This document shows positions 16,048 through 43,209 of a stretch of DNA of 43,209 bases, piece after piece. The translations under genes were made by a program, and so were the position numbers. Location: NCBI GenBank assembly GCA_030038565.1, contig JASHSS010000035.1, forward strand, positions 1-43,209, read 5' to 3'. Each line of letters starts with the position of its first letter. The first letter of the stretch is position 1. A model generated the notes under the pieces. It searched no databases, was not told the origin of the DNA, and worked only from the letters and a program-made list of their open reading frames with translations. This DNA is from Bryobacteraceae bacterium. GTDB lineage: Bacteria; Acidobacteriota; Terriglobia; Bryobacterales; Bryobacteraceae.

Positions 16048-17446
16048 GGGAGACGGCCTCGGCGGAGCCGGCGACGGCCAGATCGATCACGAACGAGCAT
16101 CCCGCGCGGGTGGGATCGTGGCGCAGTTCGCCGCGGAACGAGCGGGCGAAGGCGCGCGAAAGATACAGGCCCAGCCCCGTGGAAGCGGCGCCCCTCTGGA
16201 AGGGCTGGAACAGTGTTTCGGGAGAAGCGATGCCCGGCCCGCTGTCGCTCACCCGGATGGAAACCATGTGGGGTCCGGCGGTTACCGAGATTTCGATACG
16301 CTTCTCCCGGGCGCCCTCAAGGGCCCGCTCGCTGTTCTTGGTCAGATTGAGCAGAATCTGGAGCAGCCTGTGGCGATCGCCCCACACCGGGGGAAGCTCG
16401 CCCGGAACGTTCCAGATCACCTGGATATTGGCCTCCTCGCAATACGGCTCCAGCACGATGCGCAGCTCGTCCAGAATCTCTCCGATCTCGATGCCGCCGA
16501 TCGGGGAGTGGTCGCGCGACTGCTTCAGCTCGAGCGAAGCGATCCGGTGCAGCGTTTCGACCAGCGCGCCCAGCGCTTCGAAGTCCTTGTTGCCGCGCAG
16601 CGTGCCGCCGCGCACCAGGTTCTCGTGGACCACCGCGATGGCGCTGCACACATTGCGGATCTCGTGGGAAACCGCGCCTACCAGGATGCGCGATCCCGCC
16701 AGCAGTTGCTCCAGGTTGCTCTCCTCCCGCTCGCGCAAGTCTTCGGAAGCGTCCACCACCAGGGCCGCCAGGCGCGGTCCCATGGCCGTGCGGTAAGTGG
16801 AGAAGAAGACGTTGGCCAGGAAGACATCGCCGCGCTCGCGTTCGCCGCGGCACTGCATCTCGGTGCGGAAAGCCTGTGCCGACTGCTCGAGGGAGGGCAC
16901 CCGCGCGAGAGAGGGCACATAGCGCCGGATGTTGCGCCCCGGCAGTAGGCTGTCCGGCACGCCGAACAGGCGATGGGCCGCTCCGTTGGCCAGCAGAATG
17001 ACTCCCTCAGGGGTCATGGTGAGGATGGCGGCGGGGCTCGAGTCGATCAGAAACTCCAATTGCTCCTCGGCCTCGCGGCGGGCATCCACTTCGGCTTCCA
17101 CGCGCCGCAGCGCGGCGGCCTCCCGCAGCCGGCTGAGGGTGACTTCAAAGGCGAACAGTCCCGTTCCGGCCAGCGATGTGAAGACCAGGATATCCCCCGG
17201 CAGCGAATTGGCCAGTGTGAACGGGAATGGGTCGAAGAGATCCGAGAGCAGGGTACACAGTAATGCGCAGGCCACCACCTGCCAGCGCGGCAGCACGGTA
17301 CCCACCAGGAGCATGGGAAAAAGATATAGAAAGCCGAACGAAATGTTCAGATCGACGCGCCAATCGATCAAGGCGATGATCGCGATCAGCAACGCAGCCC
17401 GTAGCAGAACGGCGCGCGGCGTCCCTTGCAGAAACGGGACATCCAT
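16016..17446 (-). CDS. Membrane sensor histidine kinase with PAS domain
   Basis: N-terminal TM segments; PAS FLIDSSPAAILTMTPEGVILLANGAAHRLFG; H-box GAVSHEIRNVCSA; N/G boxes NLTKNSERAL, VSDSGPGI, GLGLYLSRAFARS; overlaps the response regulator start. Confidence 0.92.
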   Translation of the reverse strand: MDVPFLQGTPRAVLLRAALLIAIIALIDWRVDLNISFGFLYLFPMLLVGTVLPRWQVVACALLCTLLSDLFDPFPFTLANSLPGDILVFTSLAGTGLFAFEVTLSRLREAAALRRVEAEVDARREAEEQLEFLIDSSPAAILTMTPEGVILLANGAAHRLFGVPDSLLPGRNIRRYVPSLARVPSLEQSAQAFRTEMQCRGERERGDVFLANVFFSTYRTAMGPRLAALVVDASEDLREREESNLEQLLAGSRILVGAVSHEIRNVCSAIAVVHENLVRGGTLRGNKDFEALGALVETLHRIASLELKQSRDHSPIGGIEIGEILDELRIVLEPYCEEANIQVIWNVPGELPPVWGDRHRLLQILLNLTKNSERALEGAREKRIEISVTAGPHMVSIRVSDSGPGIASPETLFQPFQRGAASTGLGLYLSRAFARSFRGELRHDPTRAGCSFVIDLAVAGSAEAVSHEPDTTLIAR

Positions 17447-34946: not shown

Positions 34947-36875
34947 CTACATGTACTCCGGGATCGGGATTCCCAGAATCGCCGCCGTGCGCTCCAGTTG
35001 CTGCCGGAAGAAACTGGTCATCCACAGCAGAAAGACCTGCCGTTCGCGGTTCTGCTCGTGAATCACGGGATACTTCTGATAGAAATTGCTGAACGCCTGC
35101 GCGAGTTGGAAGGCGTATCGCGCCACGTGGGAGGGCTCGCCCGCGCTGACCGCGCTTTCCAGCGCCGATTCCGCCTTGGAGGCGGCCAGCAGCACCTGCC
35201 AGAAATCCTCGCTTTGCAGCTGCCGGGCCATCGCCGCGGCGTTCAGTTCGGCGGCAAAATCGGGCAGAGGCGCGCCGCGCTCCGCGAACTTCGCCAGAAT
35301 CTTGCGCGCCCGCACCGCGGCGTACTGTAAGTAAGGCCCGGTTTCGCCCTCAAAACTCAGCGCCTCCTGCAAATCGAAGGCAATCACCGTATTGCGCGTG
35401 AACTTGAGCAGGAAATAACGTAGCGCGCCGATGGCGATCCTGGTGGCCACGGCGCGATTCTGTTCGGCGCTGTCCTCGGGGTGGCGCGAGACCACTTCGT
35501 CCAGCGCTTTGCCAATCAGGCTGTCCAGCAGGTCGTCCGCTTTCACGCCCAGGCCCTTGCGCCCCGAAACTTCCACATACGGCCGCTTGCGATCTTCCTC
35601 CGAGAGCGGAATCCCCAGTTCGGCGCAGCAGCGGGGCGAAAGCGCCACCATCTCGTAGGAAAAGTGGATGGATCGGTCGGCTTGCTCGCGGTACCCCAGT
35701 CCCCGCAGCCCTTCCGCCACCACGTCCTGCAAATAGGACTGGCGTGAATCGATCACGTTGTACACCCGGGATCCATGCCCGAAGCGCACTCCGGATTCCA
35801 CGGGCTGATCGGTGGTGACCCACAGCATCCGCCCGTCCGCATAGGTCTTGAGCGGCCGGTAATAAAAATCCTTGCCGAGGAGTCCGAATTTCCAGAGTTG
35901 ATAGGCGATGTCCTTGCCGGTGTAAACCACCGTTCCGTCCGATCGCACGATCACCTTGCCCTCTTCGGAAAGCCCCGGCATCACCCAGCAGCCCGCGTGT
36001 TTGCCCTCGGTTTCGAAGACGATGGCATGGCGCTCTTTGAGCAGCTCGAAGGCCGCCGCCCAGAATTCCAGGTGCAGGATTTCGCTTTCCCTCGGCAGCA
36101 CGTCGTACTCCACGTCCAGCCGCAGCATGGTGGCCAGGTGGGCTTCCACAATCGCGTCCGCCACCAGGTGGGCCAGTTCCGCCAGTTCGCCCTCGCCCGC
36201 CTCGATGGCGTGCAGAGTTTGGGTGCGCCAGGCCAGCGCTTCCGGATGGTCGTGGTACCAGGCCGAGGTGCCCGCGTAGAGGTCCCAGCAGTAGTAATCG
36301 AAGCGCACCGCGGGGTCCGCGATCAACCCGCGCACCGCGGCGGGCGCCAGGTGCTCCAGGTAGTGGAAGCCCACTACCACGTCGGCCACCTGCACTCCGG
36401 TGTTGTCGATGTAATTCTGCACCTCCACCCGGTTGCCGCTGGCGCGCAGCATGCGCACGAAGGTGTCGCCGAGGGTGGCGTTCCTGAGGTGCCCGATGTG
36501 GGCCGCCTTGTTGGGATTGATGTTGGTGTGCTCGACGATGATTTTTTCGCCCGCCGGGGTTTCGGCGGCCGCATCCCCCGCGAGCAGGCTGGCCCCATAG
36601 GCGCCGCGGTCCAGCCGGATGTTGATGTAGCCGTTGCCGGCCACTTCGGTAGCCGCCACGCCGGCAATCGGGCCCAGTTCTTCCACCAGTTCCGCGGCGA
36701 TTTTGCGCGGCGCCTGCCGCAGTTGCCTGGCAAGCTGGAAAGCCGCTGGAACCGCCATCTCGCCGAAATCGCTCTGCCGCGGCTGTTCTACCGTAACCGA
36801 CAGATCGATTCCGTAGCGAATCCGGATATGCGTGTGAAAGGCGTCCGCTACTTGTTTTTCAATGGTATGGAACAC
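34947..36875 (-). CDS. argS: Arginyl-tRNA synthetase
   Basis: VEHTNINPNKAAHIGHLRNATLGD, GPYLQYAAVRARKIL, C-terminal DALR-like region. Confidence 0.95.
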   Translation of the reverse strand: MFHTIEKQVADAFHTHIRIRYGIDLSVTVEQPRQSDFGEMAVPAAFQLARQLRQAPRKIAAELVEELGPIAGVAATEVAGNGYINIRLDRGAYGASLLAGDAAAETPAGEKIIVEHTNINPNKAAHIGHLRNATLGDTFVRMLRASGNRVEVQNYIDNTGVQVADVVVGFHYLEHLAPAAVRGLIADPAVRFDYYCWDLYAGTSAWYHDHPEALAWRTQTLHAIEAGEGELAELAHLVADAIVEAHLATMLRLDVEYDVLPRESEILHLEFWAAAFELLKERHAIVFETEGKHAGCWVMPGLSEEGKVIVRSDGTVVYTGKDIAYQLWKFGLLGKDFYYRPLKTYADGRMLWVTTDQPVESGVRFGHGSRVYNVIDSRQSYLQDVVAEGLRGLGYREQADRSIHFSYEMVALSPRCCAELGIPLSEEDRKRPYVEVSGRKGLGVKADDLLDSLIGKALDEVVSRHPEDSAEQNRAVATRIAIGALRYFLLKFTRNTVIAFDLQEALSFEGETGPYLQYAAVRARKILAKFAERGAPLPDFAAELNAAAMARQLQSEDFWQVLLAASKAESALESAVSAGEPSHVARYAFQLAQAFSNFYQKYPVIHEQNRERQVFLLWMTSFFRQQLERTAAILGIPIPEYM

Positions 36876-37059
36876 GGGAACTTACGAGTATAACAAGCGG
36901 CTCCCGGCGGGCCGCCGGCGAGGGCGCGGTGCGCCAAAGCCCGGCCACAGCGCTGGTACCAGGGTGTAATGGGACCGGAGAACCATAACAAAGGCAAGCA
37001 TGTTACTGTTGCCCATCGGCGTTGCATACTCAGGGTGGATCGCAAGGAGGGCGACCGAT

Positions 37060-37308
37060 ATGTACATGCTGCTGAGATATCCAGCCGGGATCACCCTGGA
37101 AGCGTTGCTACTCGCCAGGAGGAAGAATCGGATGCGGGTGGTGGCGAAAGGCCTTTCCGACACCATCGAATTGAGGCGCTCAGGTACCCTGTGGCTAGAC
37201 CCCGACCGGCAGCCGGTCGAGTTCGATTTTATGATGTCCGCCGGCACTGAATTCGAGAGCCAGCCGGTGGCAAGTTCCGTCCGCGTGGCTGGTTTAGCCG
37301 CCGGATAG
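37060..37308 (+). CDS. Small hypothetical protein
   Basis: ORF with GGAGG upstream of ATG 37060; MYMLLRYPAGITLEALLLARRKNRMRVVAKG. Confidence 0.5.
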   Translation: MYMLLRYPAGITLEALLLARRKNRMRVVAKGLSDTIELRRSGTLWLDPDRQPVEFDFMMSAGTEFESQPVASSVRVAGLAAG

Positions 37309-37354
37309 CCGCGTGCGCAGCGGGCGCTTCCGGGGCTTGCCCACCGGGATTCTC

Positions 37355-37717
37355 TCAGGAAGCCGCCCGCACCTGCACGATCATCGAAGTGGTAATCGGC
37401 TCGAAGGCGGGATGATTGAATTCCAGGCACATGCCCCGCCCGATAAACCCCTGCTTGATCATCGAGCCGCCCCAGGTGGACCCCTGGATGGTCACCAGCA
37501 CTGGCTCGGGGCAAAACACCGGATGCCCCGAGATGAGCGCCTTGCCCATCCCCTCGTAGCGCAGCTTGTACGAGCGGTTCTGCGTAAGCACTTCCAGCAC
37601 CGTGCCGGGTTGCACATCGCGAAGGTGAACACCGCCTTCGATCTCCGACTGCACAATCCGGCTGTTCACAAAGTCGGCCAAGTGCGGGCTGGGCTGAAAG
37701 AGGACCGGACTCTCCAT
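37355..37717 (-). CDS. Hypothetical protein (PilZ-like length and pattern, not confirmed)
   Basis: 120-aa [66 protein letters not shown]. Confidence 0.65.
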
Positions 37718-38120
37718 CCTCCTTTCAGCTTAATACACCTTCGCCGACCGGGTGGCGCGCCCGGGTTGCGAGGGTCTTAACCAGCACTCCGTAGCGGCCG
37801 CGGTTCGCTCAGGGAAGCCCCGGGGCCCACTCCGGTCACCGCCCTCTCGCAGATATTTCCACTGCTCTTGGGCGTCAAGAGAGAGATCCTGCCCGCCGAT
37901 CTTCCCGCGAGCACAGGCAACTGTTTTGGAGCGCTTGGCAGCGCGGCCGTGCGCTTCCATGCCGCAACCAGAAAGCCGAAACTAATCCAGCCAGATCCAT
38001 GAGTTCCAGAACTTGTAGGCATTTTCACAATTTGTTTGCAAACCGCGCCCTCGTCGTTTATCATCAACGTGAGATTCCGCTACCAGGCTCGGGTAACACC
38101 GAAAAGGAGGACACGTTTCG

Positions 38121-38648
38121 ATGGGAGGTGGCGATGGTCAGAGCGCGCCCAAGCCCTCTGAGAGGGCCGGACTCCATATCGTGGCCGCGGAACTTGCCTT
38201 TTTGCTTGTCCCTTTCGTAGTCGTTGGCCTCGCCTACTTTTACAAAGGTGACCTGGTTAACCTCCTTTACGTCCCATACTGGTCTATCGCGTCGAGCGTT
38301 CTGATCGGTCACGCCCTGATCCGGTTCATCATTCGTCTGCTCCAATCCAATGGGCACGATCCGGGCATTTCGTGGGAGAAAGTCACATTGATATTCTCCC
38401 TGCTCATCATTTTTGGGCTGATCCCTTCCCTTTTAGTGCTGCTGCTGGTGCTGATCTCCGCTCAGCCATCGATGTACCTGGGCGTGACTCAATTGGTTTT
38501 GTTCGTGTTCGCGCTGGGGCTTTACCTCTGGTTCGGCTCGATCGCGCAAGACATGCCGAATACCGCAGCCACCGAAGAATTCAGCGCCGGGTTGAATATC
38601 TCCACACCCAACGTCCCCCGCTCTTATAGGAAAGCCAGCGGAGAATAA
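38121..38648 (+). CDS. Hypothetical membrane protein (about 4 TM)
   Basis: AGGAGG RBS upstream; hydrophobic segments LAFLLVPFVVVGLAYF, LIFSLLIIFGLIPSLLVLLLVLIS. Confidence 0.75.
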   Translation: MGGGDGQSAPKPSERAGLHIVAAELAFLLVPFVVVGLAYFYKGDLVNLLYVPYWSIASSVLIGHALIRFIIRLLQSNGHDPGISWEKVTLIFSLLIIFGLIPSLLVLLLVLISAQPSMYLGVTQLVLFVFALGLYLWFGSIAQDMPNTAATEEFSAGLNISTPNVPRSYRKASGE

Positions 38649-38700
38649 CCGCGCGGCTGGGTCCAGCGCTTCCGGCAAGTTTTCGTAAGTTATTGATTTA

Positions 38701-38745
38701 TGGAGCGGGAGACGGGGATCGAACCCGCGACCAACAGCTTGGAAG
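38701..38745 (-). tRNA. Partial tRNA-Gly(TCC): 3' 45 nt only, candidate att site
   Basis: Reverse complement CTTCCAAGCTGTTGGTCGCGGGTTCGATCCCCGTCTCCCGCTCCA = anticodon loop CTTCCAA, T-arm GCGGG-TTCGATC-CCCGT, acceptor CTCCCGC, T73, CCA; no 5' half (GCGGGAG...TAGCTC) follows. Confidence 0.85.
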
Positions 38746-38848
38746 ATTACGTCTGTTTTGAAAATAAAGAACATATGCGCCAATGGCGCTGAACTCTGGC
38801 CACCTAAACCACTGGGTTTTCAACCCCACCTTCGGCGGGCCTGCTTAA

Positions 38849-38866
38849 CGGAGTAATCGGAGTAAC
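38849..38866. repeat. Tandem 9-mers CGGAGTAAT/CGGAGTAAC
   Basis: Direct reading of the sequence about 100 bp inside the tRNA fragment. Confidence 0.6.
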
Positions 38867-39121
38867 GGCCCGCCCGACTTCACAGCCCGCCTAGTTGTGC
38901 TTCAACGCGACAGCCCCACAAACACGAAAACCGCCGGTAGCGCGGCGGCTCGCGAGAATCTTGAAAGGCGATTTGGATGCCCAGCCCATTTGGGTCCCGT
39001 GGCGGCCTGAAGACAGTGGACCGCCGGAAGCTCGCAGCAAAATGGATTCTGGCCGGATTGGCCGCCGCCGCACGCATTTCAGCGAGTGGCCCGCTGACCG
39101 GCCGCGAGATTGGAGTTTGAT

Positions 39122-39472
39122 ATGGCTGACATCCAGACGATCTACTCGATCCTGTTGGCCAAGAGCTACCAGGAGCAGCTTTTCTCAGATCTCATCGGTA
39201 TCCGCAAGAGAGAGGCGGGAGGACGGGAGACTCTGGTTACCTGTCCCTTCTGCCAGAAGGAGCGTCACTTTTCCTATAACCGCGACAAGCCCGTATGGAA
39301 ATGCTGGCATTGCGGTGAAGGTGGGGACTGGATCGCATACCTGCAGAAGGCTAAGGGCCTCGATTTCAAAGATGCGGTGCTGTGGCTGGCCCGGGATGCT
39401 CGATCCACGACTCGATTTGAGGTTTCCCTCCCGTCAAGAAGCGCTTTCGTAGGGGTGGATGGCGATCGATGA
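39122..39472 (+). CDS. Standalone CHC2-like zinc-finger (DnaG primase N-terminal) protein
   Basis: VTCPFCQKERHFSYNRDKPVWKCWHCGEGGDWIAYLQKAKGLDFKDAVLWLA; four-Cys variant; no TOPRIM domain follows. Confidence 0.82.
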   Translation: MADIQTIYSILLAKSYQEQLFSDLIGIRKREAGGRETLVTCPFCQKERHFSYNRDKPVWKCWHCGEGGDWIAYLQKAKGLDFKDAVLWLARDARSTTRFEVSLPSRSAFVGVDGDR

Positions 39473-40947
39473 ACGGATTGCCCCAATCAAACAGTCCTCA
39501 CACCCCGCGGCTCCGATATCGGAAGCGTGTATACAGCTACCACCGCGAAAAGTTCAAATGCCAAACGCGAAGCCAAATCACAGAGCGGTGGTTGGCGGAC
39601 AAGACCTTCGCCATGATACCGAGACGATTCTTCCCGTATTTGTTTAGAATCACTGGATCTAAGCGCGAGTTGGCGGTCCTTCTCGCCGTTATCGATTTTA
39701 GTGTCTGCAGGCCAGCTCTCGATTTCAAGGGGCCGGAAAAGAATAAGGTGGAGCAGGCCCTTGAGGGAAGGTATTACACACCGCCGTTGGTAGGGCCGGA
39801 CATCGCCGGTATGTCCGACATCAATGAGAATGGGATCGCCGCGGCGTTTGAGGAAGAAGTTCGCAATGGTGTTATCGAGCGCAAATGTGGATGCAGCGCG
39901 GGCCGCATATGCGGCAACCAAGCGGACCATCACAGCTACCGCTGCCGGTTTGACAACTGGCCCAACATCAAACGCGAGGACATCTGGGAGGATCGCAATG
40001 GAGTCCATGACCCGGATACCGGCCGATTTGCGCCCAAGAAGCCAGTCTGCTCCGAAGGACTGGGAAGTGACAGTCCGATCCAGGCGGAACAGGATCAGTT
40101 AGTTACATCCGAGCCCGCAGCCGCAACTGGGTTCCGCCCATCGGATCCCGGCGCACAAGCGCATCCAGGCGATGGCAGTGAAGTTAAGGATTCTCACTGT
40201 GATGCAACAGGTTTCTCTGTCGATGAGTTGGCAAGTCAATCTCGTCCAATGGATCGAGTCACTCTGGCAATCCCCACGAAGCCCGTCGAGATTCAGGCTG
40301 GCCAAACCGTCATGATAGCCTCGAAGCCAATCCCGGTTCATTGTAAAAACGAGATGTCGGCTCCGACACTCGTCTCGGCCAGCATTCCGCCGAATGGGCA
40401 GGGCTTCTGCTTTCATATTCACCAAACTGCGGAGGCACTGTCCAGACACGGACCCTCGTTCGCCGCGCCTGCAGTTGACCTGCCAGCATCGTTTGCCGCT
40501 CCATCAGCTGGCAGTGATCCCTGCGCGCGAAGTAGTGGAGCGCCGCCATCCAAGGCCACTTCCACGTCGCGGGATGCTCTGATCGCGGGCCTGAGTGAGC
40601 GCAAGATCGCCTGTGAGCCGAGCTATGCCGACCAAGTCCTCCAAAACCTCGCACCTGCATCGCTGGCATATTTTTTTGAGTGCCTCGATGTTGAGGCCGC
40701 GGGCAAGCGCAAAGCTCGAAAGCCCTTTAATCCTGCCCGGTACCTCCACGTCATCGCCGAACAGGTATGCGTCAAGTGGAAGACTGCAGTTTTGCCACGC
40801 CAGCACGCCGAGGAAGCCGCGGCGCAGGACCGTCGGAAGGAGGAGATCACCGAGTGGCTGCGCATGCTGGCAGACCCGAAAATATCTAAGGAAGATCACC
40901 AAGTCGTCCGCGAGTGCCTCCACAAGGCTGGCCATACCTTCACGTAG
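39469..40947 (+). CDS. Candidate mobile-element replication protein (hypothetical)
   Basis: ATGA overlap with the CHC2 gene; N-terminal region resembling winged-helix replication/helicase-loader proteins (FPYLFRITGSKRELAVLLAVIDFS) plus Cys/His cluster CGCSAGRICGNQADHHSYRC. Confidence 0.55.
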   Translation: MNGLPQSNSPHTPRLRYRKRVYSYHREKFKCQTRSQITERWLADKTFAMIPRRFFPYLFRITGSKRELAVLLAVIDFSVCRPALDFKGPEKNKVEQALEGRYYTPPLVGPDIAGMSDINENGIAAAFEEEVRNGVIERKCGCSAGRICGNQADHHSYRCRFDNWPNIKREDIWEDRNGVHDPDTGRFAPKKPVCSEGLGSDSPIQAEQDQLVTSEPAAATGFRPSDPGAQAHPGDGSEVKDSHCDATGFSVDELASQSRPMDRVTLAIPTKPVEIQAGQTVMIASKPIPVHCKNEMSAPTLVSASIPPNGQGFCFHIHQTAEALSRHGPSFAAPAVDLPASFAAPSAGSDPCARSSGAPPSKATSTSRDALIAGLSERKIACEPSYADQVLQNLAPASLAYFFECLDVEAAGKRKARKPFNPARYLHVIAEQVCVKWKTAVLPRQHAEEAAAQDRRKEEITEWLRMLADPKISKEDHQVVRECLHKAGHTFT

Positions 40948-41422: not shown

Positions 41423-41468
41423 TTTGACGTCAGCGACTTGCTCCATTTGACATCAGCGACTCGCTCCA
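41423..41468. repeat. 23-bp tandem duplication
   Basis: tttgacgtcagcgacttgctcca / tttgacatcagcgactcgctcca, 21/23 identical. Confidence 0.85.
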
Positions 41469-41672: not shown

Positions 41673-41944
41673 CCGAAAGGGCAGCGTGGTTTGCTCGGGC
41701 TGATGGCACCGGGTTGGCGGCCTTGGCGGCCCCCGGAAGGATGTTTTCGAGCGTCAGGGGCTGGTTCGGCACGTATTTCTAGACGCGGATCAGGGCGGTC
41801 GGGCTACCAAATGTACGAGGAGAATTGGACTGTCGAAGTGCGCACCGATGAGTGAACAGGCTGCAATTTGCCCACGGCTGGTTATCTGTCAATCAGCCGG
41901 GGAAGAAGGCTGGAAAGAGAGGAACGCGCCCGCGAGCGCGACGT

Positions 41945-42090
41945 GAGGGTCGCCGAATGCGCGGCGGGGGATCAACGCGTCCGCCTGGTGGTGATCCCCG
42001 GCTCGGGCAAACCCGCCGCTGGCCGCGCGGGCACGGCGGGAGGGTCGCCGCATGCGCGGCCGGAGGATGAACGCGTCCGCCTGGCGGTCA
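41945..42090. repeat. Two divergent direct-repeat units, about 95 bp apart
   Basis: gagggtcgccgaatgcgcggcgggggatcaacgcgtccgcctggtggt and gagggtcgccgcatgcgcggccggaggatgaacgcgtccgcctggcggt. Confidence 0.8.
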
Positions 42091-42151
42091 GTTCCTGACA
42101 ATGTGAGAAGACATCACCTGAGCAGGCACTATAAGCCCGAGGAAAGGCTTG

Positions 42152-42640
42152 ATGGCGAAAAAGAGTGTAGCGTGGTCGACAACAGGGATCAGGAGAATTC
42201 TTCGCAATCACGGCGCGGCCGTCGGAGGCCGGGTTACACGCCTGTTCTGCGTTGACGCGGTCACGTGTTGTGAGCTGGATAACGGCCTGCTTATTGGCGG
42301 TCAAGTCGCCAAACACGGTAGTATCGAATTAGTCGTGGCGCGCCCTGAACATTTGCCCGCCGAGTTCAGCACTGGCCGAAAAAGCGCACCCAGGGCTATG
42401 GAACTAATCCTGCTCGGCCGTACGTTTCGCGGGATAGTGGGACATCCTAAGAGCGGCGATGTGTCCTTCGATTTTGGACGCTACAGATTACGCTTCCATC
42501 GCCTTGAGTGTGGGATCTCCATCGAAATAGGCATCGATCAAACAGGATTCTACGACCTGACCGAGGATAGCCATTTGTCAATCGACGACCAGATAATGGC
42601 AGCACAAGACCTTGCGCGAGCCGAGCATAGGCCCTCTTGA
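42152..42640 (+). CDS. Orphan hypothetical protein
   Basis: 162-aa ORF MAKKSVAWSTTGIRRILRNHGAAVGGRVTRLF...GRTFRGIVGHPKSGDVSFDFGRYRLRFHRLECG; no recognised family. Confidence 0.5.
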   Translation: MAKKSVAWSTTGIRRILRNHGAAVGGRVTRLFCVDAVTCCELDNGLLIGGQVAKHGSIELVVARPEHLPAEFSTGRKSAPRAMELILLGRTFRGIVGHPKSGDVSFDFGRYRLRFHRLECGISIEIGIDQTGFYDLTEDSHLSIDDQIMAAQDLARAEHRPS

Positions 42641-42776
42641 CACGGGACTCTCGGAGCTCGCGCGTAAGGAATACCGGATACCTCTCCAGCCCACGGCATA
42701 CGGATCCGGACCTGCAACGCGATAGTCCCATCCCGGCGGGCCGCATACTCGCGCATCGCCCGGTTCCGCATCTCTA

Positions 42777-43209
42777 CCAATGTCTACCGTCCCTACGCGC
42801 GCGCGAGGGAAACACAGGAGTTACGGTCGGATCCCGCGCCGCCCAACGTCTGGCTGCGGGGCAGGGGGGAGGGTCGCTGCTGCGCGTCCGTTCGCCGGAA
42901 AGCGGCCGGGACAATCGATTCGCCTGGCGGCGATCCACGGCTCGGGCACTGCGCCACCGGCCGCGCGGCCCGGCCCGACGTGACGGACGTTGGCGGTGGG
43001 CACGGCGACGAGACACTTTTCCCCCCAGCGCGCAGGGCCGAACACGAGCACGCTGAGGAACGCGCCTCCCAACGGCGGCGATGCCATCGCAGACGACGTC
43101 GTTCGGGCCGCGACCAATGTCCACCCCTCCACGCGCGCGCGAGGGAAACACAGGAGTTACGGTCGGAGGATTCGCCCGCGCGAGTGCCGCGGGGCACTGC
43201 GGGAGGGTC
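42777..43209. repeat. Direct repeat of about 335-bp period, truncated by the window edge
   Basis: ccaatgt...acgcgcgcgcgagggaaacacaggagttacggtcgga at 42777-42831 and 43114-43167 (identical about 37-bp core); gagggtc follows each at a similar offset (about 42870 and about 43203). Confidence 0.75.

Follow-up and report, generated by a model that had tools for sequence, protein, structure and literature searches.

The 43,209-nt window, which is the whole stretch of DNA analysed here, ends in what we read, with a probability of about 0.9, as the distal (P) end of a tyrosine-integrase element that targets tRNA-Gly genes. This end begins at 38746 and reaches the contig end or beyond, and a displaced tRNA fragment probably joins it to a decayed older element. 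The fragment stops at the anticodon loop, and the DNA to its right is homologous to other P ends. Relatives carry the same architecture with an integrase and with tandem copies.

38701 to 38745, minus strand: displaced 3´ end of tRNA-Gly(TCC), from nt 32 to CCA, the att core; identical to intact genes in relatives

The minus-strand sequence of this interval, CTTCCAAGCTGTTGGTCGCGGGTTCGATCCCCGTCTCCCGCTCCA, is identical to the 3´ 45 nt (C32 to CCA) of the intact tRNA-Gly(TCC) genes of genomes G001 and G022, in agreement with the preliminary description of the 45 bp as the 3´ part of this tRNA. The intact genes of most other relatives differ from it by 1–3 nt. The match cannot be chance, because the interval is the sole match with ≤3 mismatches in its own 8.08-Mb assembly and a reversed-pattern control yields 0 matches. 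The statement that the D arm and the 5´ acceptor strand are lacking on the other side also holds: 5´ of C32 the window contains neither of these nor the 5´ strand of the anticodon stem, and ARAGORN finds no tRNA gene in the window. The boundary at nt 32 corresponds to the first base of the anticodon loop and is common to other displaced fragments. A core start at nt 33 was considered and dropped, nt 32 being present in both tRNA-Gly(TCC) and tRNA-Gly(CCC) fragments. The best candidate in the window for a second, decayed tRNA-Gly fragment has 12 mismatches in 35 nt, which is the chance level. The relatives, in which the same orphan fragment was to be sought, carry single intact genes instead.

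38746 to 38874, minus strand: P-end attachment arm, the distal terminus of the element; homologous to 8 other P ends and matched by a profile
38847 to 38863, minus strand: paired direct repeat ACTCCGATTACTCCGTT, presumably where the integrase binds the arm; recurs at tRNA-Gly in relatives

Positions 38746–38880 are homologous to the DNA abutting 8 other displaced tRNA-Gly 3´ fragments from four other genera (one in G001, three in G004, and two each in G007 and G015), with z values of 10–27 against dinucleotide shuffles. Seven of the eight alignments have 75–84 identities across about 100 nt, and the eighth has 40/50 nt. The consensus is approximately GTGGTCAGRATTnnCGCCATGGnCGCATATGTTCTTTATTTTCAAA, after which the tRNA starts at nt 32. 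A P-arm profile built without any tRNA sequence matches the window at 38752–38874 (E 2.4e-24, with the window among its training rows) and has hits in 68 of the 200 family genomes, spread over 38 of 76 genera. A tRNA-Gly 3´ end lies within about 10 nt of the P arm in 24 of the 30 loci examined, about 19 of which were not used in building the profile; two of the remaining six are wrongly positioned on short contigs and most of the others keep a decayed fragment. Within the window's P end, paired ACTCCG/ACTGCG repeats are located about 100 bp from the core, and ACTCCGATTACTCCGTT is found again next to intact tRNA-Gly genes, on their integrase side. The paired-repeat motif has 23 matches (≤1 mismatch) in 61 genomes, compared with one for the reversed pattern, and 16 of the 23 adjoin a tRNA-Gly gene, a 3´ fragment or a recognisable P end. 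In G015 and G035, both with an intact tRNA-Gly(TCC), ACTCCGTTTACTCCRTT is found about 40–50 bp after the CCA. Homology to other element ends thus sustains the earlier claim that the DNA from about 38746 onwards belongs to an element.

39110 to 39472, plus strand: 120-aa CHC2 (DnaG-type) zinc-finger protein, the first gene inside the P end (Pfam PF01807, E 9.6e-12)
39469 to 40947, plus strand: 492-aa open reading frame with a 4-nt overlap with the CHC2 gene
41850 to 43209, no strand assigned: stretch rich in a dispersed repeat at the contig end

About 4.5 kb of the element is visible. The CHC2 protein matches DNA primase in PHROG (E 1.9e-12), and its gene occupies the place of RepA or ParA genes in several relatives. 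The 492-aa product has no match in Pfam, PHROG, NCBIfam, PADLOC or plasmid libraries and no homology to RepA. PHROG matches in the visible part are of primase type only, and conjugation genes number zero in these 4.5 kb. Positions 41423–41468 hold two 23-nt tandem copies (TTTGACGTCAGCGACTTGCTCCA) that are 91% identical. The repeat family at 41850–43209 is GC-rich, with 112 matches in the window's own genome clustered on about 20 contigs, and two exact 37-nt copies lie at 42795 and 43131. The assembly breaks at the contig end because this stretch is rich in the dispersed repeat.

The window belongs to an 870-contig MAG of 8.08 Mb, from which an intact tRNA-Gly(TCC) gene is absent; the tRNA search lists 29 tRNAs. 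tRNA-Gly(TCC) normally reads GGA codons, so an intact copy should exist and is expected within an assembly gap. The cognate integrase is likewise absent from the assembly: no close relative of the tRNA-Gly integrases adjoins any tRNA-Gly there, and the best own relative adjoins tRNA-Arg(CCG) on contig C77. No tyrosine integrase is encoded in the window, the visible 4.5 kb of the element included, and searches for integrase remnants to the left and right of the fragment return chance-level matches only; the gene would be expected at the opposite end of the element. On the other contigs of the assembly, no P-arm repeat that could mark the other end of the element is present within 1 mismatch.

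In relatives, such elements are arranged in the order intact tRNA-Gly, short signature (TTTTCAATAACTTRCAG), paired repeat and convergent tyrosine integrase, with paired repeats on both sides of the element. The following convergent integrases (PF00589) directly follow the P´ arm.

L114, 5907 to 7049
L113, 7709 to 8863
L115, 676 to 1884
L206, 6531 to 8177

The near-complete relative G127, assembled in 4 contigs, exhibits the entire plan on contig C3 at 2458040–2552000 (L259–L266), including a second element in tandem.

2458040 to 2458114: intact tRNA-Gly(CCC)
2458267 to 2459631: integrase
2533730 to 2533841: P end
2533847: identical 45-nt fragment

The G127 element carries TraG, TrbE, TrbL and TrbI and, close to its P end, a RepA-type gene; counted from the core, the first 1056 nt are identical in the first and second elements. 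With its Trb conjugation genes and RepA, it amounts to a 75.8-kb ICE at tRNA-Gly(CCC). In G004, a 5.9-kb element lies between two tRNA-Gly fragments on contig C5 (L111, 2367–8218). No integrase was found in it; it encodes a TOTE-type AEP primase-helicase, a Schlafen-AlbA protein and RepA, and is possibly a mobilisable defence cassette. After the second G004 fragment the DNA lacks the signature, and this point is taken as the true chromosome boundary. In G007, contig C11 has an intact tRNA at 147 kb, followed by one fragment at 12.8 kb and another at 9.0 kb; an integrase lies past the 9.0-kb fragment. In G035, C445 carries an intact tRNA-Gly(TCC) with a P´ arm, and C431 carries a TCC fragment beside a P end; these are the two ends either of one TCC element or of two. 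The C431 fragment (17020–17140, L233) has a one-base deletion. In many relatives, an intact tRNA-Gly(TCC) has no adjoining element arms and is often directly followed by tRNA-Thr.

On the left of the fragment, the following features are located.

38684 to 38696, minus strand: signature TCAATAACTTACG just 3´ of the fragment, marking the P´ start of another tRNA-targeting element; 0 mismatches to TCAANNACTTRC
approximately 37000 to 38700, no strand assigned: probable relic of a second, older element, as suggested by the signature at its right edge, its low GC and its lack of synteny
38121 to 38648, plus strand: 175-aa orphan open reading frame with hydrophobic stretches, convergent with the fragment and within the GC-poor stretch
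34947 to 36875, minus strand: arginyl-tRNA synthetase (ArgRS; NCBIfam argS), marking the true chromosome on the left

The window sequence directly after the CCA is TAAATCAATAACTTACG, and the left flank opens with TCAATAACTTAC, the signature that begins such elements; the same signature is found at the starts of tRNA-Gly elements. Among 24 P-end fragments, the window's included, the signature follows 15. Six of these 15 continue into integrase sequence, truncated in some, compared with none of the nine fragments without it. The signature thus marks where a further element begins. The GC content is 0.535 from 38001, giving a GC-poor stretch of about 0.7 kb left of the fragment. The 175-aa product has no Pfam, PHROG or NCBIfam match and no relative among the genome contigs. 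The left flank is unrelated to the DNA beside ArgRS in relatives, and ArgRS itself is the only part shared here; this gene has a single match in its own genome and is 83% identical in G001. GatB lies farther left, and the gene content of the genome includes ASPIC/UnbV FG-GAP proteins. No exact empty site with the window's left flank was found among the relatives. Between the chromosome and the fragment there is probably a decayed older element no longer than 1.8 kb, and true chromosome probably begins again somewhere between the fragment and the ArgRS gene start (36875). The polarity first proposed, with the chromosome to the left and the element to the right, stands for the right side by P-end homology; plain chromosome directly to the left probably does not, since the signature and low GC are found there.

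The signature is also present elsewhere in this genome. TCAANNACTTRC follows 10 of the 27 own tRNA genes at ≤2 mismatches, where 0.28 would be expected; the consensus was partly derived from these flanks, and the figure is therefore an enrichment over background and not an independent prediction. These TCAAnnACTTRC occurrences are at the 3´ flanks of intact tRNA genes in loci L002–L030, and several signature-bearing flanks also have paired direct repeats and a convergent integrase. Several own tRNA genes are adjoined by integrases, and islands seem to occupy many tRNA genes in this genome.

The main competitor to a stacked arrangement is a single element with plain chromosome directly to its left, in which TCAATAACTTAC beside the CCA would be a coincidence or part of the chromosomal target. 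A single-copy ArgRS only 1.8 kb from the fragment, and a left side without arm repeats, integrase or integrase remnant, or second tRNA fragment, would suit this arrangement. However, the signature is at the right place with 0 mismatches, whereas the match rate for 32-bp stretches drawn at random from the window is 0.00024, and it is missing from the unoccupied tRNA-Gly genes of relatives. Its presence after most P-end fragments, its association with integrase sequence and the low GC that begins at 38001 also argue against plain chromosome, and we consider this explanation rather unlikely. It is considerably less probable that the fragment represents the attP of one element in circular or tandemly repeated form, the left side being its integrase end. 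P arm, core and signature do stand in a row as in an attP, and junctions with arms on both sides exist on G015 contig C318 and G004 contig C34, but the window's left side lacks P´ arm repeats and an integrase and reaches the single-copy ArgRS within 1.8 kb, then GatB.

A chimeric contig, in which unrelated pieces were joined through the 45-bp tRNA repeat, is conceivable in an 870-contig MAG with a join at a repeated sequence. The same order of P arm, core and signature nevertheless recurs in many independent assemblies, one of them of 4 contigs, which makes an artefact slightly less credible still than an attP. Group I introns sit at the anticodon loop in some bacterial tRNA genes, and the tRNA sequence here ends exactly at that loop, as a split or intron-interrupted tRNA-Gly gene would. 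This is the least plausible of the alternatives, to the point of being negligible: no group I intron or other RNA family matches at the fragment, no 5´ half is found rightward, and the right flank is an element end common to other genera.

Under the preferred reading, an element stacked on a decayed older one, a circular element would have at its attP a 45-bp copy of the tRNA 3´ part, from nt 32 to CCA, and its integrase would bind the paired ACTCCG-type arm repeats on both sides. Strand exchange would occur within the 7-nt anticodon loop. At the integrase-proximal (P´) end, the element's own copy would then complete the tRNA, and the chromosomal 3´ part would be pushed to the P end, where it would be the fragment in the window. 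The site was probably occupied before, since the P´ signature of another element opens the sequence immediately to the left of the fragment; the fragment would thus join the newer element to the decayed older one, followed by the chromosome. Anticodon-loop crossover and displacement of the 3´ part are established for such islands (Islander, PMC4383910). The nt-32 boundary, the displaced orientation, the two-sided arms and the tandem cases in relatives fit this crossover. The initial proposal that an anticodon-loop integrase left the displaced 3´ end therefore gains from the P ends and the boundary shared with relatives. For the window's copy, we infer the position of strand exchange, the integrase, the size and any present mobility, as well as the older relic.

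One end of a mobile element is thereby fixed to the base. The P-arm profile detects such ends in about one third of the sampled family genomes, even in fragmented ones without an intact tRNA or integrase. The family-wide att signature and the frequent stacking are the more interesting part. We see about an even chance that these elements constitute a family-wide, so far undescribed lineage of tRNA-Gly-specific integrative (conjugative) elements that habitually stack, carry plasmid-type replication genes at the P end, and share TCAAnnACTTRC with islands that sit, in the same genomes, at many other tRNA genes. If so, each newcomer would enter the rebuilt tRNA of the previous element and leave a row of 45-bp fragments; such rows would record successive insertions and could serve to order them.

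Compared with known systems, the window's element is clearly a new member of a well-known kind, which inserts into tRNA-Gly genes throughout the bacterial family. It resembles the anticodon-loop (class A) islands in tRNA genes, of which Islander lists 2083 (PMC4383910): the boundary is at the anticodon loop, a tRNA 3´ fragment is displaced away from the integrase, and relatives have a tyrosine integrase beside the rebuilt tRNA. Unlike those islands, the window shows the fragment end only. Islander also records tandem arrays of at least three only 4 times in 2168 genomes (PMC4383910), whereas in the present family it looks common for a fragment to lead into another element. The G127 relative, with a coupling protein and type IV secretion genes (TraG, TrbE, TrbL, TrbI), an integrase and a RepA-type initiator, corresponds to ICEs with P-type (Trb) type IV secretion; in contrast, the window's 4.5 kb has no conjugation gene and its first gene encodes a CHC2 zinc finger rather than RepA. 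CIMEs and other mobilisable elements without an integrase of their own, which accrete in tandem as att-bounded elements or relics stacked at one site (PMC5704250), are the counterpart of the 5.9-kb G004 element and possibly of the relic on the left side of the window.
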